Origin: an uncultured Mycoplasmatota bacterium
GTDB taxonomy: Bacteria > Bacillota_I > Bacilli_A > RF39 > UBA660
DNA length: 34,264 bases
Reading direction: 5' to 3'
Assembly (NCBI GenBank): GCA_947643405.1
Contig: CANRVY010000018.1
Span: forward strand, 1-34,264
Shown one piece after another: positions 8,341 to 26,251 of this stretch (within the stretch, counting starts at the first letter, position 1; each line of letters opens with the position of its first letter). The notes under the pieces are model-generated. The model did not search any database. It was not told where the DNA came from and saw nothing but the letters and a program-made list of their open reading frames with translations. Position numbers and translations under genes: made by a program.

Positions 8341-9750
8341 TTACTTACCAAGCAAATATGGATCACTTTCTGTTCCAATTCCACCTTTTATTTTTACATT
8401 AGAGTCAAGAATTACTACTGGGCGAGCTCCTGGTACAAAAAAATCCGCATTAGAAGTACCTGCTCTGCCATCTTTATTTATACTCCATACTAAATTTGAT
8501 TCTCCACCCCAAAGTGTAAGTGTCCAATCTGACTTAATTGGAAGTAGCCAATTGCTATTCGAACAAACATTATTACTAATATTTAAATTTATATTTTCTG
8601 TACATTCGCCACTTCCTGAACCATAAGCAAAATCAATCATAGTCATCAGTCCAATAGAATCCAAAATTACATATGTACTATTCTTTTCTGCTTTCTCAAA
8701 ATTCGATACTATATAATCACTACTTATACCTGCTAATTTCCATTTATCATTTAGCATCCATTCTTTTTGAACAGTTGAATTTATCCATTCTTCATTATTA
8801 AATACATCATTTTGTAATGCTGTATTTAAACTTGCTGGTCTCGTCCATACTTTTTTATCTGTATTATCCCATGCTATACCAGTACTATAATATTCTGTAC
8901 TAATTAATTTTAAATTCTCATCTATTACTCCTATGATTCTCCATAGTTGCTTTTCACTACATGTCTCTTTATCTGTTCCAAAACATACATAGTTATTTGG
9001 ATTACTTCCTGCATATCTTTTATTTCCACTTGTATCTGTTCTTATTATTCCATTTTCTCCTGCTGTTTCGGGTGTCATTATTTCCTCTGGATTTATCAAT
9101 GCATTTTTTATTTTGAAAGTTCTTGTTAATGATGCGATTTCTTTATTCTCATATATCATACGACATTTTACATCATTTTCGCCTTCTTTTAATTCTTTAG
9201 TATTTGTTACTTCTTTATTTTCATCTGATAAATTAATACATGTTACAATTCCTTTTTGATTTCTAATATTATAATAACTTCCTGGTATCGCACTATCCAA
9301 TCCTGATTCTATATAACTTAGTTTTATTCCCTCTTCTATCATTGGAGACTCAATTTTACATGTTTCTTTATTGTAATATATAATTTCTATACTTTCTTTG
9401 TCTTCTCTTTTTATTGCACACCATTTTTCATTATGAATAGACATTTCTATTTTTCCATTGCTTTTTACAATAATGGTTCCACCTTTTGGTCTAGTACCTT
9501 TATATTTTAATTCATTTTCTTCTTCCTCATATGAAAACACTTTATCTCCTAGTTCTTTATTGTCTATAATATTTTCTACATAATATAATCTTGCACTTTC
9601 CATAATCCCATATGCACTATTTTGAAATGCACTCTTTCTTGCTTTTTCTATAATATTTAGTACAGTTGGTATTGCAATTAAAGCTATCACAGTTAATATT
9701 ACGATTACAGCCAATAATTCAATCAATGTAAATCCTTTCTCCTTGCACAT
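8341..9750 (-). CDS. Type IV pilin-like surface protein with large C-terminal domain
   Basis: The N-terminus is a classic prepilin: a short basic leader ending KEKG, cleavage before Phe, then FTLIELLAVIVILTVIALIA, with Glu5 of the mature form and the hydrophobic assembly helix. Maturation needs a prepilin peptidase, which is not in this window. Residues 60-230 carry charged, cysteine-containing segments. The last 230 or so residues begin YVCFGT, continue LWRIIGVIDENLKLIS and end GARPVVILDSNVKIKGG. Such an end domain is, to my recollection, common in surface proteins of uncultured gut Firmicutes, but I cannot name it. At 469 aa it is two to three times a usual pilin, so a minor or tip pilin or adhesin is likelier than the main subunit. 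It stands alone with its own promoter. Confidence 0.75.
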   Translation of the reverse strand: MCKEKGFTLIELLAVIVILTVIALIAIPTVLNIIEKARKSAFQNSAYGIMESARLYYVENIIDNKELGDKVFSYEEEENELKYKGTRPKGGTIIVKSNGKIEMSIHNEKWCAIKREDKESIEIIYYNKETCKIESPMIEEGIKLSYIESGLDSAIPGSYYNIRNQKGIVTCINLSDENKEVTNTKELKEGENDVKCRMIYENKEIASLTRTFKIKNALINPEEIMTPETAGENGIIRTDTSGNKRYAGSNPNNYVCFGTDKETCSEKQLWRIIGVIDENLKLISTEYYSTGIAWDNTDKKVWTRPASLNTALQNDVFNNEEWINSTVQKEWMLNDKWKLAGISSDYIVSNFEKAEKNSTYVILDSIGLMTMIDFAYGSGSGECTENINLNISNNVCSNSNWLLPIKSDWTLTLWGGESNLVWSINKDGRAGTSNADFFVPGARPVVILDSNVKIKGGIGTESDPYLLGK

Positions 9751-23195: not shown

Positions 23196-23217
23196 AAAAA
23201 AGCACCAAAGTGCTTTT
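23196..23217 (-). terminator. Terminator of the bacteriocin-type operon
   Basis: AAAAGCAC (23198-23205), CAAA, GTGCTTTT (23210-23217): a perfect 8-bp stem with a U run on the minus strand, overlapping the stop of the third small peptide gene. It closes the operon that begins with the C39 exporter. Confidence 0.85.
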
Positions 23218-23362
23218 AATAAATACGAATAATGGTTCCTATAATTCTACCTGTTTTTAATATCATTTCTACTATATTAGCAAGGAATGGTACTATAAGC
23301 GGTATTCCTGCAATTACTAACACTGGTATAATTACCTTCTCTAACTTTTTTATAGTGGACAT
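23216..23362 (-). CDS. Small hydrophobic peptide, 48 aa (third peptide of the locus)
   Basis: From the ATG at 23362 the frame encodes 48 residues starting MSTIKKLEKVIIPVLVIAGI and ending GRIIGTIIRIY. It is hydrophobic with four Lys/Arg pairs of charge at the ends, two helix-breaking Pro segments (IPVLVIAGIPLIVP) and a GxxxG motif (GRIIG). There is no double-glycine leader and no cysteine. AAGGAAAATATATT precedes the ATG, and the start overlaps the second prepeptide's stop by 13 bases, so it is translationally coupled. It could be the immunity protein, a leaderless bacteriocin or a third membrane-active peptide. Typical immunity proteins of two-peptide systems are larger. The small size means automatic gene finding would easily miss it. 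Confidence 0.7.
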   Translation of the reverse strand: MSTIKKLEKVIIPVLVIAGIPLIVPFLANIVEMILKTGRIIGTIIRIY

Positions 23363-23517
23363 AATATATTTTCCTTAGATCTACGAAATGCAGAGCCTAG
23401 ACTTCTTCCTAAATCTAATAATACATCAATTCCTCTTACTAGCGCATTAATAAATGTTCCTGTAATACTAACGCCTCCCATTATTCCATTCATTTTTTCT
23501 AAGTTTAATTCTTTCAT
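23350..23517 (-). CDS. Double-glycine-leader bacteriocin-like prepeptide B, 55 aa
   Basis: The first 15 residues, MKELNLEKMNGIMGG, are a double-glycine leader with Met at -7, Ile at -4 and Gly-Gly at -2/-1, as required by C39 peptidases. The predicted 40-residue product starts VSITGTFINALVRGIDVLL, is amphipathic and slightly basic, holds a GxxxG motif (GRSLG) and ends with Cys near the C-terminus (ILCPL). AGAGAGGAGAC lies 7-8 bases before the ATG. The gene is 14 bases after prepeptide A and upstream of the 48-aa peptide. Together with A and the exporter this fits a two-peptide (class IIb) bacteriocin, though a signalling peptide pair is possible. No similarity to a named bacteriocin was recognised. 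Confidence 0.8.
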   Translation of the reverse strand: MKELNLEKMNGIMGGVSITGTFINALVRGIDVLLDLGRSLGSAFRRSKENILCPL

Positions 23518-23531
23518 TTTCTGTCTCCTCT

Positions 23532-23678
23532 CTACTTATTGCATTTAAGTGGTCTAAAAAAACCATCAATTACTCCGATAATAAATATTGCTCCTGCAAC
23601 AATAACAAGTCCTACTCCTAAACTAATTCCGCCACCTCCTTGAATTTTATTTAACTTTTCAGTTTGTATTTGCTTCAT
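23532..23678 (-). CDS. Double-glycine-leader bacteriocin-like prepeptide A, 48 aa
   Basis: The leader MKQIQTEKLNKIQGG (Glu at -9, Leu at -7, Ile at -4, Gly-Gly at -2/-1) matches the C39 substrate pattern. Cleavage after residue 15 leaves 33 residues. They begin with glycine-rich GGISLGVGLVIVAGAIF, containing GxxxG (GISLG), and end with a basic, Cys-containing tail FFRPLKCNK. The hydrophobic middle could span a membrane. The start lies 20 bases inside the end of the accessory gene, with AGAAAGGA as SD, so translation is coupled. Order and spacing (exporter, accessory, A, B, third peptide) indicate one transcript. The function as a bacteriocin is inferred from leader, motif and neighbours. Confidence 0.8.
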   Translation of the reverse strand: MKQIQTEKLNKIQGGGGISLGVGLVIVAGAIFIIGVIDGFFRPLKCNK

Positions 23679-24114
23679 TTTTCATTCCTTTCTTCCATTT
23701 CTGGCTAAATTCTTTCCAAATACTCATATCTTTTATTTTCACTCGAATTATCACGATATTATTTTCAACTAATAGTTTTTGAGATATTGATACTTTAATT
23801 TCAGCTTTTATCATTTGATTTCCAGAAATAAACTCAGGATTAGGTTCTACACTGATCAACTTCATATCTTTATTTTTTACAATCGCATTTTCAAATTCCT
23901 CTATTTTAGAAAATGGCACCATCATAGTTACTATATTTTTATTATTTTCATTAACCATACCATAAAAAGTCTCATAAACTGGATAATGATAACAAAATAT
24001 CAAAGATAATAACAAAATAGAACAAATAATCAACACAGAAACGCTTTTCTTAATTCCTTTTGGATATTGGGTTTCTAATATCCAATTTTGATCTTTCCAT
24101 ACACTTTTATTCAT
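23659..24114 (-). CDS. Membrane-anchored accessory protein of the peptide exporter, 151 aa
   Basis: It has one hydrophobic helix at residues 26-48 (SVSVLIICSILLLSLIFCY) after a short cytoplasmic start, then an outer domain of about 100 residues in beta-strand-rich segments: YGMVNENNKNIVTMMVPFSK, NQMIKAEIKVSISQ and IVIIRVKIKDMSIWKEF. This resembles the membrane-proximal part of a HlyD/MesE-type membrane fusion or bacteriocin accessory protein without the coiled-coil and lipoyl hairpin, but similarity is weak. It overlaps the C39 exporter by eight bases and the first prepeptide by 20, so all three are coupled. A role in secretion or self-protection is likely. Confidence 0.65.
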   Translation of the reverse strand: MNKSVWKDQNWILETQYPKGIKKSVSVLIICSILLLSLIFCYHYPVYETFYGMVNENNKNIVTMMVPFSKIEEFENAIVKNKDMKLISVEPNPEFISGNQMIKAEIKVSISQKLLVENNIVIIRVKIKDMSIWKEFSQKWKKGMKNEANTN

Positions 24115-26191
24115 GTTTGCTCACATCCTCTAATACACTGCCATTTTGGATTTCAATTTTTTGATCAAACAAATCTAAATTATCCAATCGGTGAGATACC
24201 ATAATAATTGTTTTGTTTGGATATTTTTTGAAAATTTGTTTTAAAATCCTTCTTTCCATATTACTATCAATTTGGCTTGTTGCTTCATCTAATAATAAAA
24301 CGTTAAATGGCAATAAAAGTGTACGTGCTAAAATAATTCTTTGCCTTTCTCCACCAGAAAGGTTTGCTCCATTTTCTTCTAAAACAAAACGATGTCCTAA
24401 TGGATTTTTAGAAAGAATGGAATCTACTTCTACTATTTTTAAAACTTCTTGATAATTGGAATTTGGTTCTTTTCCGAGTAGAATATTTTCATAAATAGGG
24501 CCTGTCCATAACTGTTCTTTCATAGATATATATAGAATGTTATTTTTTATAACATCTTCTTTATATTCTCTAATATCAATTCCATCTAAAAAAATAGTAT
24601 TTTCTGGGGCTTCATAATATTTCATCAATAATTTTAAAATGGTACTTTTTCCATTTCCACTTTCTCCAATAAGTAGCACTTTACTTCCACTTTTAATCTG
24701 AAAAGAAAGCTTTTTTAAAATAGGATGTTCAAAATAAGAAAATGTTAAATTTTCAATTTTAATATTTCCCTTTAAATCTTCCATATAAATTCCTAGCTCT
24801 TTTGTTTCCAAAAATAAGTTAGAAAGTCGTTTCCACGATACTTTCACTTTTTTAAAATCTTCTCCTAATTTTAGTAAGTTTCTAACTGGTTCTATAAAAT
24901 ACATAAATAATGAATGAAATAATAGCAGCGAGGAAATCGTCATTTCGTCTTTCGCTACTAAATAAATCCCTAAAGCTAAGAATGCTAATACAGAAAATTC
25001 ATATAAAGATTGTCCTAATATTCCAGATTCATTTTGAATACATTCTAATGATTTTACTCCTTCCGTATAGTCCATATATCGTTTCATCATTTCTTTCTTG
25101 GCGTGTCCCTTCAAATGACTACCAAATATCGTTTCATAACCCCCTAAAGTTTCAACCATATAAGAAGTAACAAGCGAATGATTTTCCTCTACTTCTTCCA
25201 CTTTTGAAGCAATTCGCCTTTGATAAATCAGGAATAAAACAATATAGAAGAATAAAGTAAAAAGAGATATCAAAAATAATTTACTACTGATGAAGTATAA
25301 AACAATACCACTCATAAATAAAAGAGGCAAATCCATCAAAGATGATAACGTAAGAGTTGCTAAAAAGGATCTAATTACCCCTATATCTCCTATTCTAGAA
25401 ATAATTTCTCCTGTGGTTCTGTTTTTAAAGTATCGATAAGGAAGATGAAGTATTTCTCCAATAATAAGATGCATAAATTTAAAATCAATTTTCTCATAAA
25501 TATGAAAGAAAACTTTATTTCTAATAAAACTACTTCCATTTTTTAAAATTAAAAAAGATACATAAAGTAAAATAGAGCATAAAAGATAAGTCATTTCATC
25601 ATGTATATTTAAAAGTGATACAAAATGTTCTAACATAAAAGAAAATAAAATAGAAAAAACAGTTATAAAAGCAGATAAACAAATCATAGTTAAAAAAGGC
25701 TTTTTTTCCTTCTTCAGCAAAGTAAAAAATTGTTTTTTTAAAATATGATTGGGATTTTTATATAAAATTGGTACTTTAGGATAAAAGGTTAAGATAACAT
25801 GTTGCCATATTTGTTCAAATTCTTTCAAATTCATTTTCTGAATTCCTTTGGCTGGATCTCCTATGATCAAATATCTCTTTTTCATATTGATTTCATAAAT
25901 GACAATATAATGATAATAACGCTTTTCTAATAAAACGTGTGCAATGCAAGGTAATATAATTGTTTCTCTTTGAAATTCCTCAAAACTCCCTTCAATTCCT
26001 CTTGCTTCAAACCCACATTTTCTCGCAACTTCTATAATCCTAGCAGCACTCACTCCATCTTTGCTCACACCTAAATTATCTTTTAATTCTTCATAAGGAA
26101 CATATCCTTGATAATATTGAATAATCATAGAAAGACAAGCAGCACCACAATCTTTATGATCTTCCTGCAATTCAATTGGATATTTATGCAT
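24107..26191 (-). CDS. Bacteriocin-type ABC exporter with C39 peptidase domain
   Basis: This 694-aa protein cuts double-glycine leaders and exports the product. The C39 peptidase (1-135) has Gln9 and Cys15 (QEDHKDCGAACL), His94 (YYHYIVIYE) and Asp112 (IIGDPAKG): the complete set. Six membrane helices fill about 155-440. The nucleotide-binding domain has Walker A GESGNGKST, signature LSGGERQR, Walker B VLLLDEATSQ and the H-loop SHRLDNL. I start it at the ATG 26191 with GGAGG eight bases upstream; an in-frame TTG at 26224 covers that SD. It is the first gene of the operon with the accessory protein and prepeptides A and B, its likely substrates. I see no clear promoter between it and rsmD, so readthrough from rsmD is possible. 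Confidence 0.93.
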   Translation of the reverse strand: MHKYPIELQEDHKDCGAACLSMIIQYYQGYVPYEELKDNLGVSKDGVSAARIIEVARKCGFEARGIEGSFEEFQRETIILPCIAHVLLEKRYYHYIVIYEINMKKRYLIIGDPAKGIQKMNLKEFEQIWQHVILTFYPKVPILYKNPNHILKKQFFTLLKKEKKPFLTMICLSAFITVFSILFSFMLEHFVSLLNIHDEMTYLLCSILLYVSFLILKNGSSFIRNKVFFHIYEKIDFKFMHLIIGEILHLPYRYFKNRTTGEIISRIGDIGVIRSFLATLTLSSLMDLPLLFMSGIVLYFISSKLFLISLFTLFFYIVLFLIYQRRIASKVEEVEENHSLVTSYMVETLGGYETIFGSHLKGHAKKEMMKRYMDYTEGVKSLECIQNESGILGQSLYEFSVLAFLALGIYLVAKDEMTISSLLLFHSLFMYFIEPVRNLLKLGEDFKKVKVSWKRLSNLFLETKELGIYMEDLKGNIKIENLTFSYFEHPILKKLSFQIKSGSKVLLIGESGNGKSTILKLLMKYYEAPENTIFLDGIDIREYKEDVIKNNILYISMKEQLWTGPIYENILLGKEPNSNYQEVLKIVEVDSILSKNPLGHRFVLEENGANLSGGERQRIILARTLLLPFNVLLLDEATSQIDSNMERRILKQIFKKYPNKTIIMVSHRLDNLDLFDQKIEIQNGSVLEDVSKHE

Positions 26192-26221
26192 AACTTCTAC
26201 CTCCTCACCCATAAGATACAA

Positions 26222-26251
26222 CAAAAAAAAACGAATATCCTAACTCGTTTT
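26222..26251 (-). terminator. Weak terminator between rsmD and the exporter operon
   Basis: On the minus strand, AAAACGA pairs with TCGTTTT around a ten-base loop (stem about seven pairs) and a run of T follows. It lies just after the rsmD stop. Confidence 0.6.

Follow-up and report, generated by a model that had tools for sequence, protein, structure and literature searches.

A core operon of small gut and sediment bacteria encodes a class IIb-like peptide pair, a candidate immunity peptide and a putative sigma-H promoter

Introduction

Cells in which the immunity protein CibC is missing or not expressed are lysed by CibABC, a two-peptide bacteriocin system controlled by the competence sigma factor (PMC5295010, PMC13059744). 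In carnobacteriocin XY, another two-peptide bacteriocin, the 42-residue one-helix immunity protein CbnZ is encoded directly downstream of cbnXY (PMC6957408), and in the non-sporulating Lactobacillus sakei sigma-H switches on comEA and other com genes (PMC3364868). Here, we describe an operon that can be compared with each of these systems. It lies on the minus strand of a 34,264-nucleotide stretch of DNA from an uncultured Mycoplasmatota bacterium (positions 1 to 34,264 of contig CANRVY010000018.1 in assembly GCA_947643405.1; the whole stretch is called the window below) and encodes a C39-peptidase ABC exporter, an accessory membrane protein, two prepeptides (PepA and PepB) and a leaderless membrane peptide (PepC).

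The host apparently belongs to the Bacilli order RF39, family UBA660. No species of RF39, an order found in the human gut, has been isolated (PMC9606305), and its genomes are reported to be reduced, with many auxotrophies (PMC12306168). The relatives of the host include Bacillales bacterium UBA660, Candidatus Faecisoma and Candidatus Pelethosoma, and the hosts within the order are small bacteria of gut and sediment. The open literature yielded no paper that pairs UBA660 with a bacteriocin.

Results

Two prepeptides with conserved leaders and mature parts

The prepeptide genes are adjacent, pepA at positions 23532-23678 and pepB at 23350-23517. PepA has 48 residues, with the leader MKQIQTEKLNKIQGG and a 33-residue mature part that ends in IDGFFRPLKCNK. 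PepB has 55 residues, with the leader MKELNLEKMNGIMGG and a 40-residue mature part that carries GRSLGSAFRR and a C-terminal Cys. A preliminary description of this DNA had reported a C39 exporter, an accessory gene and two prepeptides of these lengths, and all four were recovered on the minus strand where it had placed them. The leaders also have the reported form, with Gly-Gly at positions 14 and 15, Ile at -4 and Leu or Met at -7. Neither of the two doubts raised there, that double-glycine (GG) leaders might not be conserved among homologs and that the reading frames might lack coding constraint, was borne out: the GG pair is kept in 33 of 33 homologs of each peptide, and the pooled ratio of nonsynonymous to synonymous differences (pN/pS) within the genus of the window is 0.14 for pepA and 0.09 for pepB (0.49 for pepC).

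The 33 aligned homologs of each peptide were picked from the first 34 relatives, with start codons assigned by the ribosome-binding site where one was present. In PepA, Gly14, Gly15, Gly35, Pro43 and Cys46 are invariant and Gly39 is kept in at least 90%; in PepB, the invariant residues are Gly14, Gly15, Gly37, Gly41 and Cys53, and Arg45 and Arg46 are nearly so. The GxxxG motif that had been noted in both mature parts corresponds to Gly35/Gly39 of PepA and Gly37/Gly41 of PepB. One C-terminal Cys is invariant in PepA and PepB alike, and pepA stands beside pepB in the window, as it does at almost every locus examined.

Within the genus of the window, pN was 0.040 in the mature part and 0.102 in the leader of pepA, and 0.023 and 0.066, respectively, in pepB. 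Purifying selection is thus stronger on the mature parts than on the leaders, which is the reverse of an arms-race pattern. Neither peptide was named above cut-off by the libraries scanned (Pfam and NCBIfam). PepA reached 17.9 bits with Bacteriocin_IIc (PF10439; cut-off 27.1) and fell just under the cut-off of the bacteriocin-type leader model TIGR01847 (14.4 against 15.7 bits); PepB matched neither model, and a profile search of the PDB with PepB gave only a marginal match of the leader to the CtA peptide (E-value 0.33).

The operon is a core feature of the order

With PepA as the query, homologs turned up in almost every genome of the family and were nearly absent outside it. Profile searches recovered pepA in 178 of 193 sampled genomes of the family (137 of 148 genera) and pepB in 272 of 288 genomes sampled from the order (97 of 102 genera). 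In a sample of 395 genomes of the class, matches outside the order were weak and lay mostly in the leader region, and none was full-length. Some highly complete genomes gave no match to pepA or pepB. In many genera, the locus is flanked by rsmD and rpsU-yqeY and so occupies one fixed syntenic place. Distances between genera for the exporter correlated with those for ComEC (Mantel r 0.67, p 0.001) and more weakly with those for PilB (Mantel r 0.36, p 0.03), and distances for pepA correlated with those for pepB (r 0.65). Because exporter distances follow ComEC, vertical inheritance is the simplest reading. Our searches found no copies on plasmids, phages or viral contigs. The operon is therefore a near-universal core component of the order and not an accessory, patchily spread bacteriocin cluster. 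The preliminary description had proposed a two-peptide bacteriocin locus; the class IIb-like anatomy holds, and the near-universal, apparently vertical distribution means that this is no stray bacteriocin locus.

The same distribution disfavours an ordinary class IIb bacteriocin that is conserved for its own reasons and is independent of sigma-H and of DNA uptake. The leaders, the exporter and the GxxxG motifs by themselves would fit such a system, but it would have to be present in 92-94% of several hundred genomes and in about 93-95% of genera, and it would explain neither the promoter motif described below nor why plasmid or phage copies were not found. We consider it quite improbable.

As a separate observation, in one family of small complete genomes (f4: G039, G051, G445, G515, G510 and others) the pepB profile matched the leader region, approximately residues 1-30, in open reading frames (ORFs) of 67-141 codons. 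In the two f4 genomes checked, G039 and G051, a C39 domain is also present, and these ORFs may encode GG-leader proteins.

PepC is related to PepB

The gene pepC (23216-23362) encodes a 48-residue leaderless membrane peptide. Its start overlaps the end of pepB by 13 nucleotides, and its C-terminal GRIIGTIIR is PepB-like. The preliminary description had overlooked this gene, together with a terminator at 23198-23217 and a conserved promoter-like element at 26212-26243. Across the relatives, pepC was found in 21 of 33 loci as a leaderless hydrophobic ORF of 44-62 codons, which starts 7-16 nucleotides before the end of pepB and overlaps the pepB stop codon in every one of the 21. These ORFs were chosen by position, ribosome-binding site and hydrophobicity; ORFs at L039 and L054, which do not overlap pepB, were excluded.

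All 21 PepC sequences carry GxxxGxxxR at the PepB spacing, compared with 0.11 expected per shuffled set. In hhalign comparisons, the last 32 columns of the PepC alignment joined PepB with a probability of 91% (E-value 1.2e-6), and PepC gave no match to PepA. At several loci that lack pepC, the best match of the PepC profile was PepB itself. By these sequence comparisons, PepC is a leaderless relative of the C-terminal half of PepB. The resemblance suggests that PepC may serve as an immunity peptide that acts by mimicry, a role to which we give slightly less than even odds.

A sigma-H-like element precedes the exporter gene

The promoter-like element at 26212-26243 consists of TTAGGATAT (26243-26235), a spacer of 12 nucleotides and GTTGTATCTTA (26222-26212), and it ends 20 nucleotides before the ATG of the exporter gene. 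A two-block motif, AAAGGAAAT-N11/12-GTnG(T/A)ATnTTA, occurs approximately 50 nucleotides before the exporter start upstream of most exporter homologs. The real exporter upstreams had a median score of 15.2 bits, compared with 13.2 bits for the 99th percentile of shuffles, and the exporter supplied 23 of the 28 best-scoring sequences among 720 gene upstreams, with the motif trained on the same exporter upstreams that it scored.

Two checks, both made at the level of sequence, are independent of this training. First, the published sigma-H consensus, RNAGGAWWW/RNNGAATWW (PMC8510167), was matched at 11 or more of 13 positions in 20 of 33 exporter and 8 of 14 comEA upstreams, compared with 12.2% of background genes. 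Second, comEA was absent from the training set, and a correctly placed site of at least 10 bits for the trained motif was present in 7 of 14 comEA upstreams, compared with 1.1% of the 657 other genes (p 2e-7); the comEA sample is not independent, as 5 of its 14 genomes come from one genus. A SigH-family protein was matched in every genome of the order that was searched, mostly over its full length, with scores under the cut-off of the NCBIfam model for spore SigH. In the loci read, the SigH-like gene stands beside mrnC- and rlmB-like genes, with a nusG-like gene in one locus, surroundings that we take to be those of sigH in B. subtilis. Overall, promoter sequence and sigma factor suggest that the operon is probably under sigma-H control.

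The promoter also bears on a constitutive, self-directed role, in which the envelope of the producer itself would hold a small channel or surface complex built from PepA, PepB and PepC, as a housekeeping function and not a weapon. Such a role would agree with an operon that is near-universal, slow-evolving and vertically inherited, with the invariant C-terminal Cys of both peptides, which suggests a covalent PepA-PepB partnership, and with the helix that PepB and PepC have in common. It is harder to reconcile with a dedicated promoter that is not sigma-A-like and bears a sigma-H signature, with GG/C39 export, which is typical of released peptides, and with the highly complete genomes that lack a match. 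We regard it as improbable.

Operons for PilB and type IV pili were considered as co-regulated genes and were ruled out by their promoters: in the plus-strand loci, they carry a conserved sigma-A-like TATTATATAATA instead of the sigma-H-like motif. In the PilB operons of L165-L183, a conserved AATAAAnnCTAGTC-like stretch, possibly a leader element, lies between this box and the start codon. Elsewhere, the same sigma-H-like motif as at the exporter lies approximately 51 nucleotides before dnaG in the genus of the window (L204, L206 and L213; the start is visible in L206 and L213). Strong copies of the motif also stand upstream of two ORFs that by eye look like Rpn/PD-(D/E)XK-type nucleases (L144, minus strand, near 2859; L049, minus strand, ORF 667-1482).

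DNA-uptake genes and an unlinked kinase-regulator pair

ComEC and a PilB-type ATPase are encoded in most genomes of the order, and ComEA adjoins ComEC in the loci read. DprA (PF02481) was present in 1 of the 17 order genomes tested and missing in the other 16, which ruled it out as a co-regulated gene. Prepilin-like N-termini (for example LIELLAVIVILTVIALIA) were seen in the window at 8341-9750 and beside PilB genes in L167, L172, L173 and L180, and in genome G010 PilB adjoins the pepA-pepB locus.

The preliminary description had reported no kinase-regulator pair in view. This is correct for the locus itself, although such a pair sits elsewhere in the genome. A LytTR regulator was found in 21 of 23 genomes of the order, usually exactly one per genome; in genome G000 (C16; L143:231-2257), an AgrC-like kinase lies next to the LytTR regulator, and AgrC-like kinases were found in 12 of the 18 loci fetched. 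By eye, the ORFs listed alongside the G000 pair include no agrB- or agrD-like gene. These genes raise the main rival explanation, a pheromone pair in which the unlinked AgrC/ComD-like kinase and LytTR regulator would sense one exported peptide or both, as ComDE senses ComC, with PepC and membrane activity secondary. The LytTR gene in nearly every genome, the kinase with no agrB/agrD-like neighbour seen, and the strongly conserved mature peptides, which suit a receptor ligand, are all in line with this explanation. Two equally conserved peptides with the composition of membrane helices and with GxxxG motifs, plus a PepB-like membrane peptide, would be atypical of pheromones, and LytTR-type direct repeats upstream of the exporter did not exceed those in shuffled sequences. 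In addition, the histidine kinase and regulator are not linked to the GG peptides, so that the ComCDE/Blp-type arrangement is not seen. A pheromone pair is unlikely in our estimation.

Exporter, accessory protein and locus boundaries

The exporter gene (24107-26191) encodes 694 residues, with an ATG start and a GAGG ribosome-binding site. The identity given in the preliminary description is borne out by Pfam, as Peptidase_C39 (PF03412), ABC_membrane (PF00664) and ABC_tran (PF00005) were matched over the full length. The best NCBIfam model was TIGR01193, with a score under the curated cut-off, and the closest solved relatives are 4RY2 (an ABC-type bacteriocin transporter) and 8HF4 (pneumococcal ComA). 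Matches in PADLOC were discarded, being confined to the ATPase part. Nearly all members of the order that were examined have one C39 gene per genome, and the exporter is therefore probably dedicated to PepA and PepB.

The accessory gene (23659-24114) encodes a 151-residue protein with one N-terminal membrane helix and a beta-rich domain, which keeps its place in many relatives despite strong divergence and has no match in Pfam or NCBIfam. An AlphaFold2 model built from 12 divergent homologs (mean predicted local distance difference test score, pLDDT, 80) showed the helix and the beta-rich domain. Foldseek found no match to the model at an E-value of 0.001 or below; in VIA-align, the top three matches were all MacA, with Z scores of 6.3-6.7 over 79-88 residues, a weak result that is not trustworthy alone. 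It is plausible that the protein is a minimal membrane-fusion adaptor of the MacA/HlyD kind.

In transcriptional order, the locus reads rsmD, promoter-like element, exporter, accessory gene, pepA, pepB, pepC, terminator, rpsU and yqeY, all on the minus strand. The flanking genes, named by eye, are rsmD (26772-26251), rpsU (23087-22893) and yqeY (22858-22418). The terminator scan placed the intrinsic terminator at the end of the operon, with the structure AAAAGCAC TTTG GTGCTTTT followed by a T-rich stretch. Because the genes lie on the same strand and overlap or almost touch, a single transcript is likely.

Discussion

We estimate a probability of roughly 50% that this operon is a core, vertically inherited, sigma-H-controlled killing system of the class IIb-like two-peptide kind, comparable to CibABC, with PepC as its candidate immunity peptide. 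The genes, the leaders, the exporter and the relation of PepC to PepB are read from the sequence; killing, immunity and sigma-H control are what we infer from them. Export of two cut peptides is highly likely, and the exporter would both cleave the leaders and release the mature parts. PepA and PepB are likely to be a membrane-active pair: their conserved GxxxG faces and paired C-terminal cysteines would let them associate within a target membrane and make it permeable. PepC would remain in the producer's membrane, where its PepB-like helix could block or mispair PepA and so confer immunity for as long as the operon is expressed. Even with a dedicated immunity gene, a core bacteriocin could still be of use, because only expressing cells would be immune. 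RNA polymerase carrying the SigH homolog would turn on the operon together with comEA-comEC, and the killing or leaking of neighbours that do not express it would thereby be coupled to DNA uptake, as with CibABC in pneumococcus; we place such coupling somewhat short of an even chance.

Several observations weigh against this killing system. Near-universality is unusual for a bacteriocin and would also fit a signal, and having just one invariant Cys in each peptide is atypical of class IIb. The absence of pepC from 12 of the 33 loci weakens the case for immunity. As for regulation, only half of the comEA upstreams reach 10 bits (three of the seven from one genus), the comEA site in the window's own genome has a poor -10 block, and pilB operons have the sigma-A-like promoter. 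Finally, DprA is mostly missing, and any link would therefore be to DNA uptake more than to transformation, with DNA as food or building material as likely as recombination; the gain may accordingly lie more in nutrients or nucleotides. The fullest version of the proposal is that an order-wide, sigma-H-programmed, membrane-opening pair is tied to the DNA-uptake genes, is countered in the producer by a toxin mimic that mispairs it, and gives a reduced-genome lineage a standing way to feed on the DNA or nutrients of its neighbours. We advance this version tentatively and hold it to be rather doubtful.

A secreted peptide pair that is nearly universal would rank among the order's defining traits. 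If the killing system is real, a GG two-peptide system has become fixed across a whole order, as a built-in weapon for opening neighbouring cells, unlike the ordinary bacteriocin with its patchy spread. Sigma-H-type control of killing would then reach beyond streptococci, and a leaderless copy of one partner's helix would offer a simple idea of immunity.

Comparison with known systems

The sigma-H regulon of Lactobacillus sakei, a non-sporulating Bacilli species in which sigma-H drives comEA and other com genes (PMC3364868), is a possible parallel to the present case. Unlike in L. sakei, the pilB operons here do not carry the motif and most genomes tested have no DprA; the word 'bacteriocin' is not mentioned in that report. 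The exporter is a full-length sequence relative of the C39 exporters PCAT1 and ComA (4RY2, 8HF4) but, unlike these, is paired with an accessory protein of 120-150 residues, which takes the place of a long adaptor of the ComB/LcnD type.

Lactococcin G, plantaricin EF and carnobacteriocin XY, all of class IIb, likewise consist of an adjacent leader-bearing pair with GxxxG in the mature parts. By analogy, PepC may correspond to the short membrane immunity peptide CbnZ, encoded right downstream of carnobacteriocin XY (PMC6957408). The present system departs from class IIb in the invariant single C-terminal Cys of each peptide, the leaderless PepB relative and the near-universal vertical distribution.

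CibABC of S. pneumoniae and CabABC of S. mitis combine, as this operon may, a two-peptide bacteriocin and a small immunity protein under ComX/SigX, the streptococcal counterpart of SigH (PMC5295010, PMC13059744), a likeness in the kinds of parts. In S. mitis CabABC, as is predicted here, the GG leaders are recognised by a C39 exporter, there ComAB. Unlike the CibABC hosts, the present hosts mostly lack DprA, and here PepC resembles PepB. The operon also holds its own exporter and accessory gene, and whereas CibABC belongs to one species group, the present peptides are core to an order of more than 100 genera.

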